Assembly: GCA_026415235.1 (NCBI GenBank)
Contig: JAOAHM010000085.1
Coordinates: forward strand, 1-33,176
From: Ignavibacteria bacterium
GTDB lineage: Bacteria > Bacteroidota > Ignavibacteria > Ch128b
Length of the DNA: 33,176 nt
Direction: 5' to 3'
Shown here: positions 23,280-32,835 of the stretch, in pieces
How the letters are laid out: the number at the start of each line of letters is the position of its first letter
Numbering within the stretch: the stretch's first letter is position 1
Notes under the pieces: generated by a model
Told to the model about the DNA's origin: nothing
What the model saw: only the letters and a program-made list of their open reading frames with translations
The model's database searches: none
Translations under genes and position numbers: made by a program

Positions 23280-25172
23280 ATGATTAATTTTAGAGATAAA
23301 AATCTAATTCCCATTTGGGAAAAAGTTCAGCGTGGTGAAGAATTATCATTTGAAGATGGAATTACTCTATATAAATCTTCGGACATCATCTCAATTGGTA
23401 AAATGGCGCATTGGCTTCAGCGAGAAAAAAATGGTGATGCCGTTTACTTTGTAGTAAATCAAAAAATTGAACCGACAAACATTTGTGTACTTTCGTGTAA
23501 GTTCTGCGATTTTGCCGTTAAGAAAAATTCTCCTGAAGCTTATGAAATGACAATTGAAGAAATTTTATCGAAACTTCATCCTGAACTTCTTGAGGTTCAC
23601 ATCACTGGTGGATTGCATCCTGATTGGGAATGGGAATATTATGTCGGAATGGTTCGAGAGATTAAAAAACATTTTCCCAAAATTGATGTTAAGGCATTCA
23701 CTGCAGTTGAAATAGATTTCTTTTCAAAAAAATTCAAAAAATCAATTGAAGAAGTTTTGCTTGAATTAAAAGAAGCTGGACTTAGAACATTGCCTGGTGG
23801 TGGTGCAGAAGTTTTTTCTGAGAGAGTTAGGAGACTTCTTTTCAATCAAAAGATTGGCGCAAAACGATGGCTCGAAATTCATAAGAAAGCTCACGAACTT
23901 GGAATTCGTTCAAATGCGACTTTACTTTATGGTCACATCGAAACAATTGAAGAAAGAGTTAATCACTTCTTGTTGTTAAGAAATTTACAAAAGGAAACAG
24001 GTGGATTTCTTTCGTTCATTCCTCTTGCTTTTCAACCTGGTGATACAGGAATTAAACCAAGAAATCAATTTACTTCTGCGATTGATGATTTGAAGACAAT
24101 TGCCATTTCACGATTGATGCTTCATAATTTTGATCACATTAAAGCTTATTGGATTATGCTTACTGAAGAGCTTGCTGCAGTGGCTTTAAATTTCGGCGCT
24201 GATGATATGGATGGAACTGTAGGTGGTGAAAGAATTGCTCACGATGCTGGTGCAATTACTCCAATGCAACTGGCAAAAAATAAATTGATTAAAATTATTA
24301 ATGATGCGAACAAAATTCCTGTTGAAAGAGATATCTTTTATAAACCAGTTAGACTTCATTCTAATAATGTTATAGGAAGAGTTTCATATTTGAATACACT
24401 TCCTTTCTTCAAATATCTCGATAATCGTGAATACAAAATTTTTCCTGCTACACCACGACAACTTGGAATGCTTTTCAAAGATGGAAATATTGATGCAGGA
24501 ATTGTTTCGCTTGTTGATTTCTTTGAGAAAGAAAATGATTTTACTTATTTGAAATATGGAATAGTTGGAAATAAAAATGTTAAAAGTGTTCTACTTTACT
24601 CTAAATTTCCAATTGAACAGTTGGATAAAAAAAGTATTGCTGTGACGGATGAAACTTCAACATCGTTTAGATTGCTTCAGGTTTTGCTTGAGTTGAAATA
24701 TGGACTTGATGTAGTTTATGTGCGTGAGAAAATTTCTGCACGAGAAAAAACACTTCCGAATTTCGATGCATTTCTAACAATTGGCGATGAGGCTTTAAAA
24801 TTTTTGAAAAATAAACTTGATGGATTTAATTACATTTACGATTTAGCTCAACTATGGTATGATTGGAAAAATCTTCCTTTTGTTTTTGCTGTCTGGGCAG
24901 TGAAAAAAGATTTACCTCAAACTAAAATTGATGCTCTTGATAAACTTTTGAACGATGCATTAAACAAATTCTTTTCTTCTACAACAGAGATTGAAGAATA
25001 TTACAATGTAAAAATTGGTTTCACCCAAAAAGAAATTCAGGACTATCTGAATAACATAGTTTACAGATTGGGTGAAAAGGAAATTCAATCAATTAGTTTA
25101 TTCAAAGAATATTATCAAACTTTACTGCTGAAGCATTCTGAGGAAGAAAAAAAAGTTAAGTTATCCCATTAA
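23280..25172 (+). CDS. mqnE-mqnA: Fused aminofutalosine synthase (MqnE, radical SAM) - chorismate dehydratase (MqnA)
   Basis: N-terminal: TNICVLSCKFCDFAVKK, HITGGLHPDWEWEYYVGMVREIKKHFP, GGGAEVFSERVRRLL, HIETIEERVNHFLLLRNLQKETGGFLSFIPLAFQP, HNFDHIKAYWIM. C-terminal from about residue 360: VIGRVSYLNTLPFFKYL, ATPRQLGMLFKDGNIDAGIVSLVDFFE, SVLLYSK, MqnA-like. No internal stop. Confidence 0.9.
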   Translation: MINFRDKNLIPIWEKVQRGEELSFEDGITLYKSSDIISIGKMAHWLQREKNGDAVYFVVNQKIEPTNICVLSCKFCDFAVKKNSPEAYEMTIEEILSKLHPELLEVHITGGLHPDWEWEYYVGMVREIKKHFPKIDVKAFTAVEIDFFSKKFKKSIEEVLLELKEAGLRTLPGGGAEVFSERVRRLLFNQKIGAKRWLEIHKKAHELGIRSNATLLYGHIETIEERVNHFLLLRNLQKETGGFLSFIPLAFQPGDTGIKPRNQFTSAIDDLKTIAISRLMLHNFDHIKAYWIMLTEELAAVALNFGADDMDGTVGGERIAHDAGAITPMQLAKNKLIKIINDANKIPVERDIFYKPVRLHSNNVIGRVSYLNTLPFFKYLDNREYKIFPATPRQLGMLFKDGNIDAGIVSLVDFFEKENDFTYLKYGIVGNKNVKSVLLYSKFPIEQLDKKSIAVTDETSTSFRLLQVLLELKYGLDVVYVREKISAREKTLPNFDAFLTIGDEALKFLKNKLDGFNYIYDLAQLWYDWKNLPFVFAVWAVKKDLPQTKIDALDKLLNDALNKFFSSTTEIEEYYNVKIGFTQKEIQDYLNNIVYRLGEKEIQSISLFKEYYQTLLLKHSEEEKKVKLSH

Positions 25173-25193
25173 GTTAGTTTGGAATGTCTATTG

Positions 25194-25442
25194 TGTCACC
25201 CTGAGCCTGACGAAGGGTGACAGTTTAATTTCAATATTGCTATTGCGCTCCAGTTGTCATCCTTCGTCCTTGCTCAGGAAGACAACAAGTAGTTTGAAAT
25301 TTTTGCTTTGTCACTCTGAGCCTGACGAAGGGTGACAATAGTCAGATTGAAATTATGAGTTTATTAAAATCAGTCAGGCTTCGTAAAGTTCAGCCTGACA
25401 AAAAGAACTTACTGTCATCCCGAGCAACAACGAGGGGTGACA
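25194..25442. repeat. Cluster of five REP-like imperfect palindromes (TGTCACCCTGAGCCTGACGAAGGGTGACA family)
   Basis: Copies at 25194-25222, 25255-25285 (opposite orientation, degenerate), 25309-25337, 25373-25399 (GTCAGGCT-11 nt-AGCCTGAC) and 25413-25442. Confidence 0.85.
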
Positions 25443-25479
25443 TTGATATGTTCTATTAAAAAGAAAAGAAAGAAAAACT

Positions 25480-26580
25480 ATGCTTACGAAAGATATACTA
25501 AAAAAAGTTATTGATGGCGAAAGAATATCTAATGAAGAATGTTTACAACTTCTCCAATACAATGATATACTCGAACTTGGTGAAGTTGCAAATGAAATTC
25601 GCTTCAGAAAAAATCCTGAAAACTATGTAACATTTGTTGTAGATACAAATCCAAACTACACAAATGTTTGTGAAATTGATTGTACCTTCTGTGCATTCTA
25701 TCGTCATAAAGATGAGCCCGATGCTTACACTTATTCGGTAGACGAGTTAATCAAAAAATTTAAAGACGCAGCTAAGAGAGGCGTTACTACTGTTCTTCTT
25801 CAAGGTGGTGTTAATCCAGATTTACCTTTTGAATATTATCTCGAACTTGTTGAAAGAACAAGAAAAGAAGTTCCAGAAATTCATCCTCACTTCTTCTCTA
25901 CTTCAGAGATTATTGGAATGAGTGAGGTGAGTGGACTTTCAATTAGAGAAGTTCTTATAAAATTAAAAGAAGCTGGTCTCAATACAATTCCAGGTGGTGG
26001 TGCAGAAATTTTAAGTGACCGTGTTAAAAGAAAAATAAGTAAGAAGAAAGGAACAAGTGCAGACTATCTAAATGTAATGCGTGAAGCTCATTTGCTTGGA
26101 TACAAAACAACCGCAACAATGATGTTTGGTCACATTGAAAGCGATGAAGATATTGTAATTCATCTCGAAAGTATTAGAAAACTTCAAGATGAAACTGGAG
26201 GATTTACTGCATTCATTCCATGGAGCTTCAAACCCGAAAACACTCCACTCGAAAAACACATCAAATCATTTGCTTCGCCATATCGCTATTTGCAAATCAT
26301 AGCAATCTCAAGAATTTATCTTGATAACTTCCCTCACATTCAAGCATCGTGGTTTAGTGAAGGTAAAAAGATTGGACAAGTTGCATTACACTTTGGTGCA
26401 GATGATTTTGGTGGAACACTTGAAGAAGAAAATGTTCATGCTGCAGCAAATTTCATAAACAAAAGCTCAACAGAAGAAGTAATTGATTTAATTCATGGTG
26501 CTGGTTTCGATGCTGCACAAAGAGATACGCTGTATAATATTTTGAAAGTGTATGCCCAAAATGCAATCAAGATTTTATGA
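25480..26580 (+). CDS. mqnC: Cyclic dehypoxanthinyl futalosine synthase (MqnC, radical SAM)
   Basis: TNVCEIDCTFCAFYRHKDEPDAYTYSVDELIKK, LLQGGVNPDLPFEYYLELVERTRKEVPEIHPHFFS, GGGAEILSDRVKRKIS, HIESDEDIVIHLESIRKLQDETGGFTAFIPWSFKPENTPLE. Confidence 0.95.
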   Translation: MLTKDILKKVIDGERISNEECLQLLQYNDILELGEVANEIRFRKNPENYVTFVVDTNPNYTNVCEIDCTFCAFYRHKDEPDAYTYSVDELIKKFKDAAKRGVTTVLLQGGVNPDLPFEYYLELVERTRKEVPEIHPHFFSTSEIIGMSEVSGLSIREVLIKLKEAGLNTIPGGGAEILSDRVKRKISKKKGTSADYLNVMREAHLLGYKTTATMMFGHIESDEDIVIHLESIRKLQDETGGFTAFIPWSFKPENTPLEKHIKSFASPYRYLQIIAISRIYLDNFPHIQASWFSEGKKIGQVALHFGADDFGGTLEEENVHAAANFINKSSTEEVIDLIHGAGFDAAQRDTLYNILKVYAQNAIKIL

Positions 26581-27613
26581 ACATTAGTAATTCAGATAAA
26601 TCTTTAATTCCTTTAGATTCATAATTAACCTTAGAAAGATAATCTTCTATTAAGCTTATTTCTAAATCTTTTTTCTCCTGTATTACATAAAGGGAAAAAA
26701 TGATAGCAGAAAATATAACATTAAATAAATCTGGTTGAAATGATTGATCTGGGTGAATTGATTTGTTTCTATAATTATTTAATTTGAAACCAAATCTAAC
26801 TAATTCAAGAGGGCTTTCAGCAATAATTATAGATAAAGAATTATTTTCTTGCCATACAAATTCTTTACTAGTTAAAATTAATTTTTCAGCTTGATATTTA
26901 TTTTTTTCAAAATCTCTTTTCAATTCCTCATCGCTTTTTGAATTTCTTAAAAAAGAAATTAAACAACTATGATAAAGATGTATAATTAATCTATAATAAA
27001 TATAACTTGATGTAATGTTTTTAAGGTTAAGCATTAAATTCAATATTATATTAATATTATCTAATATTTCCCATTGAATTTCAAAAGGTAATTTACTATT
27101 TGAAATTTTGCGTTTGATTTTCTTATTAAACTTAAATATATCAAATAGATAATATTCTTTTTCTAGTTCTTCCAAGATTTTTCTTATACCTATATCGAAC
27201 CAGTCCTGTAGTCCAGCGTCTTTTCTACTTTTGTCAAATGTATAAACTACCAATCCTTTTTTAACTAGTTCTTGATGTTCTTCTGATAAGTCTAAGGCCT
27301 TAAACTGTCCTGAATAAGTACATATTTTAGAAATGGGGCAAATTGAAAAAGCTTTTTTAATGATTTCAAAACCAGAATCTCTTCTGCCTCCTTTATGTGA
27401 TTGTTGCGTAAAATCAATATCAATAAATAGAATATGATAAAAATCGTTCTTTTCATTGGCCTCCGATAATTTACTAATAGCTTTTTCTGGAAATTCACAT
27501 TCAATTATATCAAATTCATATTCTGAATTTTCTTTTAACTTATAAAGTTCTTCTATCAAAATATCTCTTGCTTCGATGGTATCTTCTGCTATCAATACTT
27601 TAAATTTTTTCAT
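26567..27613 (-). CDS. Response regulator (REC) with C-terminal all-helical HEPN-like domain (candidate RNase)
   Basis: REC: KVLIAEDTIEARDILIEEL (acidic pair), ILFIDIDFT (phosphoacceptor Asp), KICTYSGQ, VYTFDKSRKD (Lys). C-terminal helical region with LNNYRNKSIHPDQSFQPDLF, matching the HEPN catalytic pattern R(N/D/H)x3H (R282-H287). No recognisable DNA-binding output domain. Confidence 0.72.
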   Translation of the reverse strand: MKKFKVLIAEDTIEARDILIEELYKLKENSEYEFDIIECEFPEKAISKLSEANEKNDFYHILFIDIDFTQQSHKGGRRDSGFEIIKKAFSICPISKICTYSGQFKALDLSEEHQELVKKGLVVYTFDKSRKDAGLQDWFDIGIRKILEELEKEYYLFDIFKFNKKIKRKISNSKLPFEIQWEILDNINIILNLMLNLKNITSSYIYYRLIIHLYHSCLISFLRNSKSDEELKRDFEKNKYQAEKLILTSKEFVWQENNSLSIIIAESPLELVRFGFKLNNYRNKSIHPDQSFQPDLFNVIFSAIIFSLYVIQEKKDLEISLIEDYLSKVNYESKGIKDLSELLMFIKS

Positions 27614-28526
27614 ACTTAATTAATTTTGGTACTTGTAATTTTATTATAGTTTGAGATTTATCACTATCAATTTCGAATTTACTCTCAATATGTAAGTTAT
27701 GACACCATTTTTTTACCAATCTTAATCCAACTTTAGATGATTTAGACATAGGTATTTCTTCTGTCAGATTTTCTTGATTTGAATTAAACCAATCAGTCTC
27801 GGTTTTAGAAATTATACGATTATTATAAATTGCTACTTTAATAAACATTTCATATTCTATAATTTCTATATGAATTTTGGGATCTTCTTCGTCAGTGTAT
27901 TGAAAAGCGTTTCTCAATAAATCTTTGCATATTAGTTCTAATGCTGTTTCAAGATTATCGTCAATTTCTATTTCACATATACCTTTTGTAAAAATGGGAA
28001 TATTTAGGTTTAGAAGTTTATTTTTATGCTCTCTAATAGATAATCTTAATGAATCTATACCTTCTTTAATTGTATAAATTTGTGCTTCTATTAAATTTTT
28101 TAGATTTACTTTATGTATTTCTTTGGCTTTTGGTAATCTTTCTTTATTCAAATCCCACATAATTAGATTGGTAATGTCTCTAATTCTTGTAATATTATGC
28201 TTAGCTTTTTTTATCAAATGAAAGTATTCAACGGTTTGAGGGATACTATTCAGATATGAGAGAGCTGCAAATACATCGGTATTAATTGAATGCGACATTT
28301 CATCAACAATCTTTTTCCAAGTATTTAATTGTGAATTTAGTTCTTTCTCCCTTAGAAGTGAATTGAGAGTTTTCTTTTGAAATTTAATTCTTTCTTTAAT
28401 TAATTCGTTGAATGTTTTTTCCCTATGTAATTCTTTTTCTTTTATTTCAGAAATTTCCTTTCTTAAATTTTCATTTTCATTTTTTAAGTTTTCAATTAAA
28501 TTCAATAACTCTTTAATTTCATCCAT
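27600..28526 (-). CDS. Soluble sensor histidine kinase (coiled-coil N-terminus, DHp-like, HATPase_c)
   Basis: Long N-terminal coiled coil; candidate H-box DEMSHSINTDVFAALSYL; N-box LICKDLLRNAFQYTDEEDPKIHIEI; G-box SSKVGLRLVKKWCHNLHIESKFE. No transmembrane segment. Start overlaps the REC-HEPN gene's start by 14 nt. Confidence 0.75.
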   Translation of the reverse strand: MDEIKELLNLIENLKNENENLRKEISEIKEKELHREKTFNELIKERIKFQKKTLNSLLREKELNSQLNTWKKIVDEMSHSINTDVFAALSYLNSIPQTVEYFHLIKKAKHNITRIRDITNLIMWDLNKERLPKAKEIHKVNLKNLIEAQIYTIKEGIDSLRLSIREHKNKLLNLNIPIFTKGICEIEIDDNLETALELICKDLLRNAFQYTDEEDPKIHIEIIEYEMFIKVAIYNNRIISKTETDWFNSNQENLTEEIPMSKSSKVGLRLVKKWCHNLHIESKFEIDSDKSQTIIKLQVPKLIKYEKI

Positions 28527-28543
28527 TTTAATTAAGTGTTTTT

Positions 28544-29740
28544 TTACTTACGAATTTTCTCTAAAAAATTTTCATATTTTTTCTCAAGTGTATAACTGAA
28601 TAAATTACCTGGGTTTTTAAAAACATTAAATATTGGAGAAAATTCATTTATTAAATTCAGATAGACTTGATAATCAATCATTGTTTTTTCTTCATAGAAC
28701 GAAATTTTTGTATTTTCTTTTAACCAGCTTAAAACTTCTATTTCTTTTGTTTTTTGTTCTTCAGTTAATATTGCCTTTAAATACTTTAGTAACTCGTTAC
28801 ACTTTCCTAAATCCATAAGAAATGGTTCATAGATTTCATCTGATAATGAACCACTAGTATGACCAATATAAATATATGGACGAGTTTGTACATATTCAGA
28901 AGCTTCTTTTAACGGAAATTCTTTTCCTGTAAAAATTACAGCATAAATTCCAGCATCATAATATAATTTTAATGCTTCATCCCAGGGAGTTAGGTTTTCT
29001 CTAAAATATTTCTTTAAGAACTCAATATCATCGGTTAAACTTATATAATTGTTTTCATCTATATGGAATCGCTCAGAATTTTCAATTAAAGCATTCTTTA
29101 TTAGTGATAAATCATCAATTTCTAAACCAAAATGTAATTTTAATAATAAGGGAATATTATCTAAATGCAGTTTATTACTATTTCTTACTAAACTTGCAAT
29201 ATGTTTAGCAATTATGTATGACTTATAATCTTCCTTATATAAGCAAAAATGAAGTTCGTTAGATTTTCTTACTTTATCAATTATAAAATGATTTTCTGTA
29301 ACTAAAATACGGAAAACTTTGTTAAGGAAATCTATGTCACAAAGTTCTAACATCCTGGGTTCTTTACTAAAGAATAAATTTTTAAATTGTTTTTGGATAA
29401 AATCTAAAGTTTTATCACTATAAGAGAACACATATACTTTTCTAGTAAGAAATACACAATTGAATATATCTACAATTGCTTTTTTAAATACATCTTGGCT
29501 GATTAGATAACTTTCTTTAATGTGTTCTAAATTAATTTTTGAATATGTTGGTTTCCTAATAATTTCATAAAAATTTAGTAATTCTATACCATAATCTTGA
29601 TAATCAAATTGTATAGGTAACTCTTCTTTTTCAAAAAAGAGATGACTTATTTTTTTTAACTTAACGGGTTTTCCTTCCTTATCAAGATAATTTTTAACAT
29701 CATTAATTTTTTGTTTTAAATTTAATTCTGATACAACCAT
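28544..29740 (-). CDS. Protein of unknown function in the CARF/HK/REC-HEPN cassette (398 aa)
   Basis: Long ORF, same strand, 17 nt upstream of the HK gene; low-complexity-free, well-mixed sequence. Possible winged-helix-like segments (e.g. LIKNALIENSERFHIDENNYISLTDDIEFLKKYF). No confident family assignment. Confidence 0.65.
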   Translation of the reverse strand: MVVSELNLKQKINDVKNYLDKEGKPVKLKKISHLFFEKEELPIQFDYQDYGIELLNFYEIIRKPTYSKINLEHIKESYLISQDVFKKAIVDIFNCVFLTRKVYVFSYSDKTLDFIQKQFKNLFFSKEPRMLELCDIDFLNKVFRILVTENHFIIDKVRKSNELHFCLYKEDYKSYIIAKHIASLVRNSNKLHLDNIPLLLKLHFGLEIDDLSLIKNALIENSERFHIDENNYISLTDDIEFLKKYFRENLTPWDEALKLYYDAGIYAVIFTGKEFPLKEASEYVQTRPYIYIGHTSGSLSDEIYEPFLMDLGKCNELLKYLKAILTEEQKTKEIEVLSWLKENTKISFYEEKTMIDYQVYLNLINEFSPIFNVFKNPGNLFSYTLEKKYENFLEKIRK

Positions 29741-29826
29741 ATTTGAAATTCCTTTTATTATCTTCTTTCATTCAAAATTAACGAACTTTCTAAAGAATTT
29801 ATTTACTGAAATATTTCCGCAACTTT

Positions 29827-30810
29827 TCAATTTTCGATTTTTATCTTTTCTAAATCCAATAAAATTCCATAAAACATTGCACCTTTCTTGCCGTGACTAA
29901 CTATTTGATAATACCTTGAGATTTTGTCGTCATTAAGTAGAATTTTAATTTTTTTATTTAATCTTGAAATATTTGCTCTGAATGTAGTAGTTGATAAAGG
30001 CTGCTTATTATATATAATTTTTTTTAATACTAATCTGTGCAATTCAAGATCGGGAAAACTTTCTTCATGATATATATATATTTCATTGATTATTTCAAGC
30101 GGGACAAATAATCCTGACATTTTTACTTCACTAATACCTTGTAGTTTTTTTTCTACAAAGAATCTGTAATAGGAGAACTCAATTGGAGAAAATGGAACTT
30201 CATATTGTCCAATGTAAACTCTGCCTTTCTTAATCTGCAATATTAGTTCTGGTAATAATGATTTTTTAATATTGTTTAATTCATTTTCTAACCTTATTAT
30301 TTTTGGCAAAGTTGTGTTTAATTTAACTTCTTTAATATCACCACCATACTTTGGGTTACGAATATATATTAGTTTAAGTGGAAATTCTTTTGAAAAGTCA
30401 CCTGACTCACTCAATAGTATCCAACAAACTTGCATCGCTGGAGTGCCTGATGAAATTGAAGCGGTATATTCAATAAATTCATTTTTCGGTAAAGTATCAC
30501 AAAAAGTTTTGAGCTTTTCATATATTTCATTATGGTCTACAACATCGTTAATATTAAGTTCGAATAGTAATACTTTATTTGAAAGTTTCCTTTTTTTAAT
30601 TTCTTTAATTAAGTATAAGCCTATTCCTTTAAAATCAATCTCTGAACTTGAATTGTATAATAGAATAATCTCATCATATTTCATTTGTTTAAGTATTGTT
30701 AAGATAGCCCCATCTTCTTGACCCATCAATTTTCCAGCGTCATTTGTTCCAATAAAGGATAGCAAAATTTTTTTTATTTTTTTCATAAATTCATTGGAGT
30801 TTTTAATCAT
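29827..30810 (-). CDS. CARF-domain protein (RtcR-like sensor) with probable C-terminal winged-helix domain
   Basis: LLSFIGTNDAGKL...AILTILKQMKYDEIILLYNSSSE (beta-strand 1 region) and YTASISSGTPAMQVCWILL (the S/T-x-GT-x-x-M/Q-x-x-W motif of CARF/RtcR N-termini), KLIYIRNPKYGG. C-terminal EVPFSPIEFSYYRFFVEKKLQG...TTTFRANISRLNKKIKILL resembles an OmpR/PhoB-type wHTH. Alternative ATG at 30786. Confidence 0.72.
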   Translation of the reverse strand: MIKNSNEFMKKIKKILLSFIGTNDAGKLMGQEDGAILTILKQMKYDEIILLYNSSSEIDFKGIGLYLIKEIKKRKLSNKVLLFELNINDVVDHNEIYEKLKTFCDTLPKNEFIEYTASISSGTPAMQVCWILLSESGDFSKEFPLKLIYIRNPKYGGDIKEVKLNTTLPKIIRLENELNNIKKSLLPELILQIKKGRVYIGQYEVPFSPIEFSYYRFFVEKKLQGISEVKMSGLFVPLEIINEIYIYHEESFPDLELHRLVLKKIIYNKQPLSTTTFRANISRLNKKIKILLNDDKISRYYQIVSHGKKGAMFYGILLDLEKIKIEN

Positions 30811-30859: not shown

Positions 30860-31360
30860 ATGAAACGATTTGAACAATTATATTATCTTTCGTGGGATCA
30901 TCGCTCTGCTTTGATGGAAGCTTTTAACGTCTCAAAGTATGTTGATGAATTCGATAATCTTCAAACTCTTGAGAAAAGAAATTCTATCATTAATTTTTAT
31001 GAAAAAGATTTGCTTCTTCATTTCAGAGCTGAAGAAGAAATTCTTTTACCAAGAATGACTTTAAATTCTGAAGTGAACATCGAATTAATCAGAAAGACTC
31101 TTGATGATCATATACTCATCCATAGTTTAATTATTTTATTAAAAAAGGAAACCAACGATTTTCAGAAATTGAAATCTATCCTAAAAGAATTTGCAACGAA
31201 CTTAACAGCACACATCAGATTTGAAGAACGAGAGCTTTTTGAACATGCTCAATCTATTTTGAACAATAATGATTTTAACGAAATACAAAAAGAAATCACC
31301 GAACGATATGGAGATAAATATCTCTCACCTTCCTGCGATTTACCAGAAGAACTTGCATAG
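30860..31360 (+). CDS. Hemerythrin-like (HHE cation-binding) domain protein
   Basis: WDHRSALM, LLLHFRAEEEILLPRM, LDDHILIHSLI, LTAHIRFEERELFEHA: spaced H/E ligands typical of the HHE family. Confidence 0.88.
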   Translation: MKRFEQLYYLSWDHRSALMEAFNVSKYVDEFDNLQTLEKRNSIINFYEKDLLLHFRAEEEILLPRMTLNSEVNIELIRKTLDDHILIHSLIILLKKETNDFQKLKSILKEFATNLTAHIRFEERELFEHAQSILNNNDFNEIQKEITERYGDKYLSPSCDLPEELA

Positions 31361-31452
31361 AAATTGACTTGAAGAACTTAAATTCTTTACTAACTTTTAA
31401 CAAAAATTTTTTTCATTGCAAAAGTAATTGTTCAGATTTTTAAATTGTCACT

Positions 31453-32835
31453 ATGAGCATCGTAAAATTTGAAGCATCTTTGAACATTTCACCTTTCGAA
31501 CTTTTCAGTCGAATTCATCCTGAAGAAGGTTGGATTTTTTTTGATACTTCTCTTCAAAATGTTCCTTACTCAAACTACTCAATAATTTGTATCAAACCGA
31601 AGATTATCGTTTCATTCGATGGAAATAAGTTCACTATAAGAGACCAACAAAAAGTTGAAAATGTAACTTCAACTGAACCATTAAAATTTCTAAGAGAATT
31701 ATTTCTAAAGCTCAAAAATGATTACACTTCGGAAGTTGTATCTAACACTTTCACATCTGGATTTGCTGGATATTTTTCCTATGACTTTGGAATGAAGATT
31801 GAAAAAGTTGGAAGTAAAAATCCTTCATCTACAAATCTACCAGAAATTTTTCTTGCGTTTTTTGAAAATGTTTTAGTCTTTAATCATTCAACAAAAAAGT
31901 ATGAAGTCTATTCATATAATTCACCAAAAGAGTTTTTGGATTTTATTTTCAGACGATTAGAAACTCCTAAAAAACCTTTGCAACAAAATTTTAAAATTGA
32001 ATTCAAATCAAATTTTTCTAAAGAGGAATATCTTAAGACAATCGAACGAGTGAAGAAGTATATTGAAGAAGGTGATGTGTATCAGATAAATTTATCTCAA
32101 CAATTTCAGTGTAATGTCAATCTTCATCCAATTGAAATATATTCACGACTTAGAGAGAGAAATCCCGCTCAGTTTTCAGCTTTGATTTGTGTTAATCAAA
32201 ACCAATGGATTTTAAGTTCTTCCCCTGAACTATTTATTGATTTGAAAGGGAAAAAAGTTATCACAAAACCAATCAAAGGAACGATTAGGCGAGGAAAAAA
32301 TTCAGACGAAGATGAAGAGCTAAAAAATCAATTACTAAATAGCGAAAAAGATTCAGCTGAATTGCTTATGATTGTTGATTTGGAAAGAAATGATTTTGGA
32401 AAAATTGCTCGTGCTGGTAGTGTTAAAGTTAATTCATTAAAGCGAGTTGAGACTTATGCAAGTGTTCACCATCTCGTCGCTGAAATTGAAAGTGAACTTA
32501 TGAATGATAAAGATATTTTTGATTTGATTGAAGCAATGTTTCCTGGTGGTTCAATAACAGGAGCACCAAAAAAAAGAGCAATGGAAATTATTGATGAACT
32601 CGAAAAAACAAAGCGTGGTGTTTACACTGGTTCAATTGGCTATATTGATTTGAATGGTAATTCGATGTTCAACATTGCAATTAGAACTTTGATTTATGAA
32701 AATGGAAAATTGTTTCTCAATCTTGGAGGAGGAATTGTTTACGATAGTAATCCAGAAAAAGAATTCGATGAGACATTGCAAAAAGGTAAAGCTATCTTTC
32801 AATCTTTATTAGGAGATATTCTTGAAACAGATTGA
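31453..32835 (+). CDS. pabB: Aminodeoxychorismate synthase component I / chorismate-binding enzyme
   Basis: YLKTIERVKKYIEEGDVYQINLSQQF, SSSPELFIDLKGKKVITKPIKGTIRRG, LLMIVDLERNDFGKIARAGSV, FPGGSITGAPKKRAMEIIDELEKTKRGVYTGSIGYID. Confidence 0.92.
   Translation: MSIVKFEASLNISPFELFSRIHPEEGWIFFDTSLQNVPYSNYSIICIKPKIIVSFDGNKFTIRDQQKVENVTSTEPLKFLRELFLKLKNDYTSEVVSNTFTSGFAGYFSYDFGMKIEKVGSKNPSSTNLPEIFLAFFENVLVFNHSTKKYEVYSYNSPKEFLDFIFRRLETPKKPLQQNFKIEFKSNFSKEEYLKTIERVKKYIEEGDVYQINLSQQFQCNVNLHPIEIYSRLRERNPAQFSALICVNQNQWILSSSPELFIDLKGKKVITKPIKGTIRRGKNSDEDEELKNQLLNSEKDSAELLMIVDLERNDFGKIARAGSVKVNSLKRVETYASVHHLVAEIESELMNDKDIFDLIEAMFPGGSITGAPKKRAMEIIDELEKTKRGVYTGSIGYIDLNGNSMFNIAIRTLIYENGKLFLNLGGGIVYDSNPEKEFDETLQKGKAIFQSLLGDILETD

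Follow-up and report, generated by a model that had tools for sequence, protein, structure and literature searches.

This locus raises the question of whether a response regulator can carry an RNase as its output domain. One minus-strand gene in the 33,176-nucleotide stretch of Ignavibacteria DNA analysed here (the window) joins an amino-terminal receiver (REC) domain to a carboxy-terminal helical region containing the motif RNKSIH, which a sequence-only reading had taken for the catalytic signature of an HEPN RNase. No response regulator with an HEPN or RNase output is described in the open-access literature that we searched. The gene, termed REC-HEPN below, belongs to a cassette of four genes on the same strand, encoding in order a CARF protein, a protein termed X, a histidine kinase and the REC-HEPN protein (Table 1).

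Table 1. Coordinates of the REC-HEPN cassette, its genes and the residues discussed in the text (positions within the window).
Feature	Position	Strand	Basis and remarks
Whole four-gene cassette	26567..30810	-	Between mqnC and the hemerythrin gene
REC-HEPN protein, 348 aa	26567..27613	-	ORF; N-terminal receiver and C-terminal HEPN-like helical domain
Receiver (REC) domain, residues 1-128	27230..27613	-	Fold and invariant residues
D11	27581-27583	-	Receiver residue, invariant in 11/11
Phospho-acceptor D65	27419-27421	-	Codon checked, invariant in 11/11
S101	27311-27313	-	Receiver residue, invariant in 11/11
K128	27230-27232	-	Receiver residue, invariant in 11/11
HEPN-like helical core, residues 177-311	26681..27085	-	AlphaFold models; layout compared with PMC3710099
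RNKSIH motif (R282, N283, H287)	26753..26770	-	Translation; Rx4H with a polar residue after R
Soluble histidine kinase, 308 aa	27600..28526	-	Coiled coil, H-box H79, HATPase domain; 14-base overlap with REC-HEPN
Kinase H79	28290-28292	-	H-box histidine, motif checked
Protein X, 398 aa	28544..29740	-	Position shared by its homologues; N-terminus variable, C-terminal domain conserved
CARF (RtcR-type) protein, 327 aa	29827..30810	-	Pfam RtcR, E 1e-7; PADLOC CARF-RtcR, E 1.8e-18

Judged by sequence and structural model, the amino terminus is a genuine receiver domain. The full-length AlphaFold model (eight sequences; pLDDT 85, pTM 0.85) shows residues 1–128 in the alternating strand-helix arrangement of a receiver, for which the top Foldseek matches in the PDB are REC domains, e.g. 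that of ComE (4mld). Phosphorylation of a receiver requires the residues corresponding to D11, D65, S101 and K128, all four of which are retained throughout the family. A family profile run against 396 genomes of the phylum yielded no new REC-HEPN protein, picking up ordinary response regulators only, over the receiver part. The original designation of the product as a REC protein is therefore supported by its fold, by the nearest solved structures and by the invariant phosphorylation residues.

The remainder of the protein had been described as helical and devoid of a DNA-binding motif, a description that held: the AlphaFold model contains nine helices beyond residue 155, the C-terminal domain modelled alone is all helical with a pLDDT of 89, and no credible match to a DNA-binding family was obtained. 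A DNA-binding response regulator is rejected for lack of a supporting family match. The core of the domain comprises helices 177–195 and 204–223, an insert at residues 228–266, and helices 269–286 and 296–311, with R282 located near the end of helix 269–286 and H287 just past it. HEPN domains consist of two helical hairpins with an insert between helices 2 and 3 and a motif ending core helix 3, the motif being Rx4–6H with a polar residue directly after the arginine (PMC3710099). Assigned by helix order alone, the motif here also closes the third core helix, and the insert falls between core helices 2 and 3. Many HEPN families, but not all, additionally possess an acidic residue in helix 2, often as part of Ex3[KR] (PMC3710099); position 219, within helix 204–223, is Glu or Asp in the ten homologues and Ile in the window protein.

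Translation of the minus-strand interval given in Table 1 yields RNKSIH, so that both the residue numbering and the coordinates originally assigned to the motif are correct. By itself the motif constitutes weak evidence, because shuffling the C-terminus yields Rx4H by chance in 8.8% and R[NDH]x3H in 1.4% of cases. We therefore turn to the ten homologues, which derive from eight other genomes and are 22–40% identical to the window protein. R282, N283 and H287 are invariant in all 11 aligned proteins, which rules out a chance motif and bears out the conservation of Arg and His on which the sequence-only reading had staked its proposal. The alignment contains 20 invariant columns, 14 in the receiver region and 6 in the C-terminal region, the latter (6 of 199 positions) being Y214, L260, R282, N283, H287 and I322. 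For six randomly placed invariant positions to include R, N and H, the probability is ~1.5e-5, with the residue-type bias of conservation ignored.

Comparisons with known folds and families returned no significant match for the C-terminal domain. Foldseek gave none in either the PDB or BFVD, the best HEPN entry in the PDB being 7ae6_B (E 4.4, TM 0.41; not significant). Helical bundles often obtain poor Foldseek scores. Sequence and profile searches of the PDB with the whole protein and with the C-terminus resulted in just REC or chance matches, and scanning the window protein against Pfam, NCBIfam and PADLOC produced no meaningful match; in 10 of the 11 members, these collections provide no HEPN support for the domain. 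The sole HEPN-related family match is that of one diverged member to TIGR02391 (E 0.0016, under the cut-off). The seven TIGR02391 (Ymh) proteins found here also have RNPxxH, and hhalign against them aligned the RNx3H motifs with a score at noise level, no better than the control. Of the proposed HEPN output domain, the motif, its conservation and the helix order thus stand, whereas a significant Foldseek, HMM or profile match to a known HEPN was not obtained. We therefore term the domain HEPN-like, on the basis of motif and topology, and treat homology to HEPN as putative.

The gene overlapping REC-HEPN encodes, as predicted from its sequence, the cognate kinase of the receiver. H79 of the H-box and the N-box asparagine N206 are invariant in all ten kinase homologues, seven of which match HATPase_c (best E 1.2e-7). 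Kinase activity is uncertain, because the ATP site (G1 box) has NN in place of the typical HATPase DxG. Among 391 genomes of the class, the kinase profile matched solely REC-HEPN carriers and one truncated copy. This copy (G649:C97:4549-4902) contains a stop codon and is likely a relic of a lost cassette.

Protein X would serve as a sensor or accessory factor, its C-terminal domain exhibiting weak similarity to GIY_YIG_2 (PF20815) in seven of eight members (best E 3e-5). The N-terminus of protein X is fast-evolving, and in the window copy the GIY and YIG elements are spaced ~24 residues apart, longer than usual. The CARF protein is predicted, again from sequence, to be the regulator of the cassette: its residues 178–326 match the CARF5 C-terminal region in PADLOC and contain a probable wHTH, and homologues with 46–52% identity are found in three other cassettes. 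The window copy has no AAA match and scores far under the NF038308 cut-off.

The order X, kinase, REC-HEPN, with genes overlapping or nearly touching, recurs in the loci that could be read, and the kinase–receiver pair is present in ten loci, as a tandem duplicate in one. The complete CARF-X-kinase-REC/HEPN order is also found in genomes G300, G338 and G534. The locus in G534 (L036:3789-11545) has a single CARF gene and, after it, a tandem duplication of the X-kinase-REC/HEPN triplet, which could correspond to two signal inputs or to two RNase outputs. A full-length RtcR-like activator, whose CARF-AAA-HTH domains were checked in G408 (L012), stands divergent from the X gene in G408, G664 and G727 (L012, L024 and L030, respectively). 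Between activator and X, each of these loci contains a sigma-54-like promoter, TGGCACGCTATTTGCA in G408, TGGCACGGTAGTTGAA in G664 and TGGCACGGTTATTGGA in G727; the chance expectation for such patterns is 0.01 per locus, with the G664/G727 pattern having been picked after the sites were seen. No sigma-54 site was found in the window itself.

The cassette is flanked in the window by futalosine-pathway menaquinone genes (mqnE-like and mqnC; 23280-26580) and by the hemerythrin gene together with anthranilate synthase component I (30860-32835). Three relatives, two congeneric and one from the same family (G001, G002 and G004), lack the cassette and retain an uninterrupted mqnC-hemerythrin-trpE arrangement, in which the hemerythrin gene starts within ~35 bases of mqnC and is followed by trpE. 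This uninterrupted site rules out the cassette as a fixed part of the chromosome. Its GC content is 0.23–0.27 compared to 0.31–0.35 for the flanks, and its spread is patchy: in the main host family, it is present in 8 of 80 genomes. From these sequence features, the cassette appears to have been acquired as one unit and to be mobile. Searches of phage, plasmid and viral-contig collections found no cassette copy.

The phylum-scale search initially returned three REC-HEPN homologues, and ten were found in all. No relatives were found among 60 near genomes, and a single-sequence scan of genome contigs with the window protein gave no match. When the family alignment was used to scan 84,980 species genomes, six loci were recovered, all of them on contigs already found and all from MAGs carrying the label Ignavibacteria, Ignavibacteriaceae, Ignavibacteriales or Chlorobiota. 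In these genome scans, the REC-HEPN family proved rare and was encountered only within the Ignavibacteria class.

One carrier genome places the kinase–receiver pair next to CRISPR genes. On a contig of G689 (L032:1-4413, G689:C185), a diverged pair of kinase and REC-HEPN genes lies 5 bases upstream of cas6, which is followed by cas10/csm1; this REC-HEPN protein is 22% identical to the window protein and still has the motif, as RNSAAH. A second contig (L074, G689:C408) begins inside cas10, runs through csm2-csm3-csm4-csm5 and goes on into unrelated genes. The cas10 pieces on the two contigs correspond to residues 3–353 and 507–802 of a relative, and from the gene content we infer that both contigs belong to one type III-A locus. 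No csm6 was found on the two contigs; a csm6 gene further upstream is possible, because the kinase-bearing contig ends there. The L074 contig starts with MCIRDR, resembling a sequencing-adapter remnant at a contig end. Cas10 was found in five of nine carriers; the window's own genome, at 88.8% completeness, yielded none, suggesting that the window carries a stand-alone cassette independent of type III CRISPR.

The strongest support for reading the C-terminal domain as an HEPN RNase comes from the dedicated kinase, the CARF regulator, the mobility of the cassette and the homologue adjoining type III-A CRISPR genes. Overall, we lean towards a four-gene cassette for stress or defence that moves horizontally and in which a phosphorelay-controlled HEPN RNase acts in defence or dormancy. 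Sequence and models provide the gene set, the receiver, the invariant H79 and RNx3H, the mobility, the promoters and the III-A neighbour, and every functional step of the mechanism, RNase activity included, is what we infer from them. The RtcR-type CARF factor would switch the operon on in response to RNA damage, sensed probably as 2',3'-cyclic phosphate at RNA ends, while a second signal would be picked up by protein X, by the kinase coiled coil, or by both. The kinase would then autophosphorylate on H79 and pass the phosphate to D65 of the receiver. Phosphorylation would alter receiver dimerisation such that two HEPN-like domains pair, forming a composite, metal-independent RNase site from R282 and H287, and the resulting RNA cleavage would lead to dormancy or abortive infection. 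The cyclic-phosphate ends of the HEPN products could in turn feed back on the CARF regulator; such a loop has been proposed for CoCoNuTs (PMC11090510) and would fit here too.

Other readings of the same data concern either the role of the cassette or the nature of the domain. A housekeeping stress two-component system unrelated to phage, for example one tied to RNA repair and using RNA cleavage for translation control, would be in line with the RtcB encoded in the window's genome and in five other carriers, and with the response of an RtcR-type CARF to damaged tRNA in Salmonella (PMC7790460). Three carriers are, however, without detectable RtcB, and a mobile defence module accounts better for the patchy spread, the low GC content, the precise absence in three relatives and the copy within a type III-A CRISPR locus, which leaves the housekeeping reading possible but doubtful. 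Were the HEPN-like RNase constitutively active and bound by protein X or the kinase as an antitoxin, with no phosphotransfer, the cassette would instead be a toxin–antitoxin system. Overlapping genes, the degenerate ATP-binding G1 box of the kinase and the frequent pairing of HEPN toxins with an inhibitory partner (PMC3710099) point in this direction; as the full conservation of the receiver phosphorylation residues and of kinase H79 would then be left unexplained, we regard a toxin–antitoxin system as improbable.

With respect to the domain, an HEPN-derived but non-catalytic output could bind RNA or protein, with the response regulator controlling protein X or another partner. Many response regulators work via protein–protein contact (PMC5847659), the window member has lost the helix-2 acid (I219), and there is no significant fold match to catalytic HEPNs. 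Non-catalytic HEPNs, however, typically lose the motif (PMC3710099), whereas R, N and H make up three of the six invariant C-terminal residues across 11 proteins, down to 22% identity, and we consider a non-catalytic output unlikely. The domain might also not be HEPN at all but a lineage-specific helical output whose RNx3H arose independently, e.g. for ligand or metal binding, as could be argued from the lack of significant Foldseek matches in the PDB or BFVD, of support from Pfam, NCBIfam or PADLOC for 10 of the 11 members, and of an hhalign score above noise against the seven TIGR02391 proteins. Against this, the motif spacing, the polar residue, the helix position, the insert and, in 10 of 11 members, the helix-2 acid agree with the HEPN description, and the diverged member weakly matches TIGR02391, whose seven members have RNPxxH; we find an origin outside HEPN quite unlikely.

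Each part of the phosphorelay-controlled cassette is known or resembles a known part, and it is the wiring that is new. Detocs, reportedly described by Rousset and colleagues in 2023, is said to be a two-component defence system consisting of a kinase, a separate receiver 'buffer' and a response-regulator effector. On this description, Detocs shares with the cassette a histidine kinase and a response regulator with a killing-effector output, whereas the cassette has no separate receiver 'buffer' gene, its effector is HEPN-like, and a CARF regulator and protein X are present. The HEPN superfamily RNases catalogued by Anantharaman et al. 2013 (PMC3710099) are alike in R[N]x3H, the motif at a helix end, the preceding insert and, mostly, the helix-2 acid; in contrast to them, the cassette domain is fused to a receiver, paired with its own histidine kinase and not significantly similar to any of the HEPN families catalogued. 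Csm6/Csx1, the CARF-HEPN effectors of type III CRISPR, likewise combine an HEPN-like RNase with a CARF link, and one REC-HEPN relative is situated in a III-A locus. In the cassette, however, CARF and HEPN reside on separate proteins, with no CARF match in the REC-HEPN protein, the CARF protein resembles a transcription regulator, and gating is by a REC domain, for which the predicted requirement is phosphate and not cyclic oligoadenylate.

CoCoNuT systems (PMC11090510) also contain RtcR-like CARF regulators with HEPN RNases and, in some subtypes, REC, whereas the cassette lacks a McrB-type GTPase (CnuB), helicase or nuclease genes and unites REC and the HEPN-like domain in one response regulator with a dedicated kinase. 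The sigma-54 activator RtcR (PMC7790460) is similar in its CARF type, and in three loci the CARF-AAA-HTH architecture and a sigma-54-like promoter before X extend the likeness; the operon controlled is X-HK-REC-HEPN, not rtcBA, and the window's CARF protein is without an AAA+ domain. Cam2, a type III CRISPR effector (PMC11229360), similarly places a REC domain within a CRISPR effector, but is a membrane protein that lacks a kinase and is presumed to be a nucleotide binder, in contrast to the REC-HEPN protein with its always adjacent kinase.

Tentatively, these cassettes may add a third mode of control over HEPN immune RNases, with a His-Asp phosphorelay taking the role that cyclic oligonucleotides or a bound antitoxin play elsewhere. 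The kinase and REC-HEPN pair would replace csm6 in the III-A locus, and a self-amplifying loop would be closed in the stand-alone cassettes by an RtcR-type CARF that senses the HEPN-made cyclic-phosphate RNA ends. If true, a global RNase would be switchable by protein phosphorylation, tying two-component sensing to defence or dormancy, and a type III CRISPR system may command its effector through a kinase. With both a CARF regulator and an HEPN RNase, the cassette would also be a clean case for testing the proposed cyclic-phosphate feedback loop.

Two further type III neighbourhoods were noted in carrier genomes. A G689 contig (L077, G689:C52; 232-5639) contains type III cas10 and cas6 beside a UG34 (defence-associated RT) reverse transcriptase, and in G664 (L072, G664:C36; 2364-5062) a type III-A csm operon is directly preceded by a UvrD-like helicase gene and an ORF of 474 aa that was not recognised.
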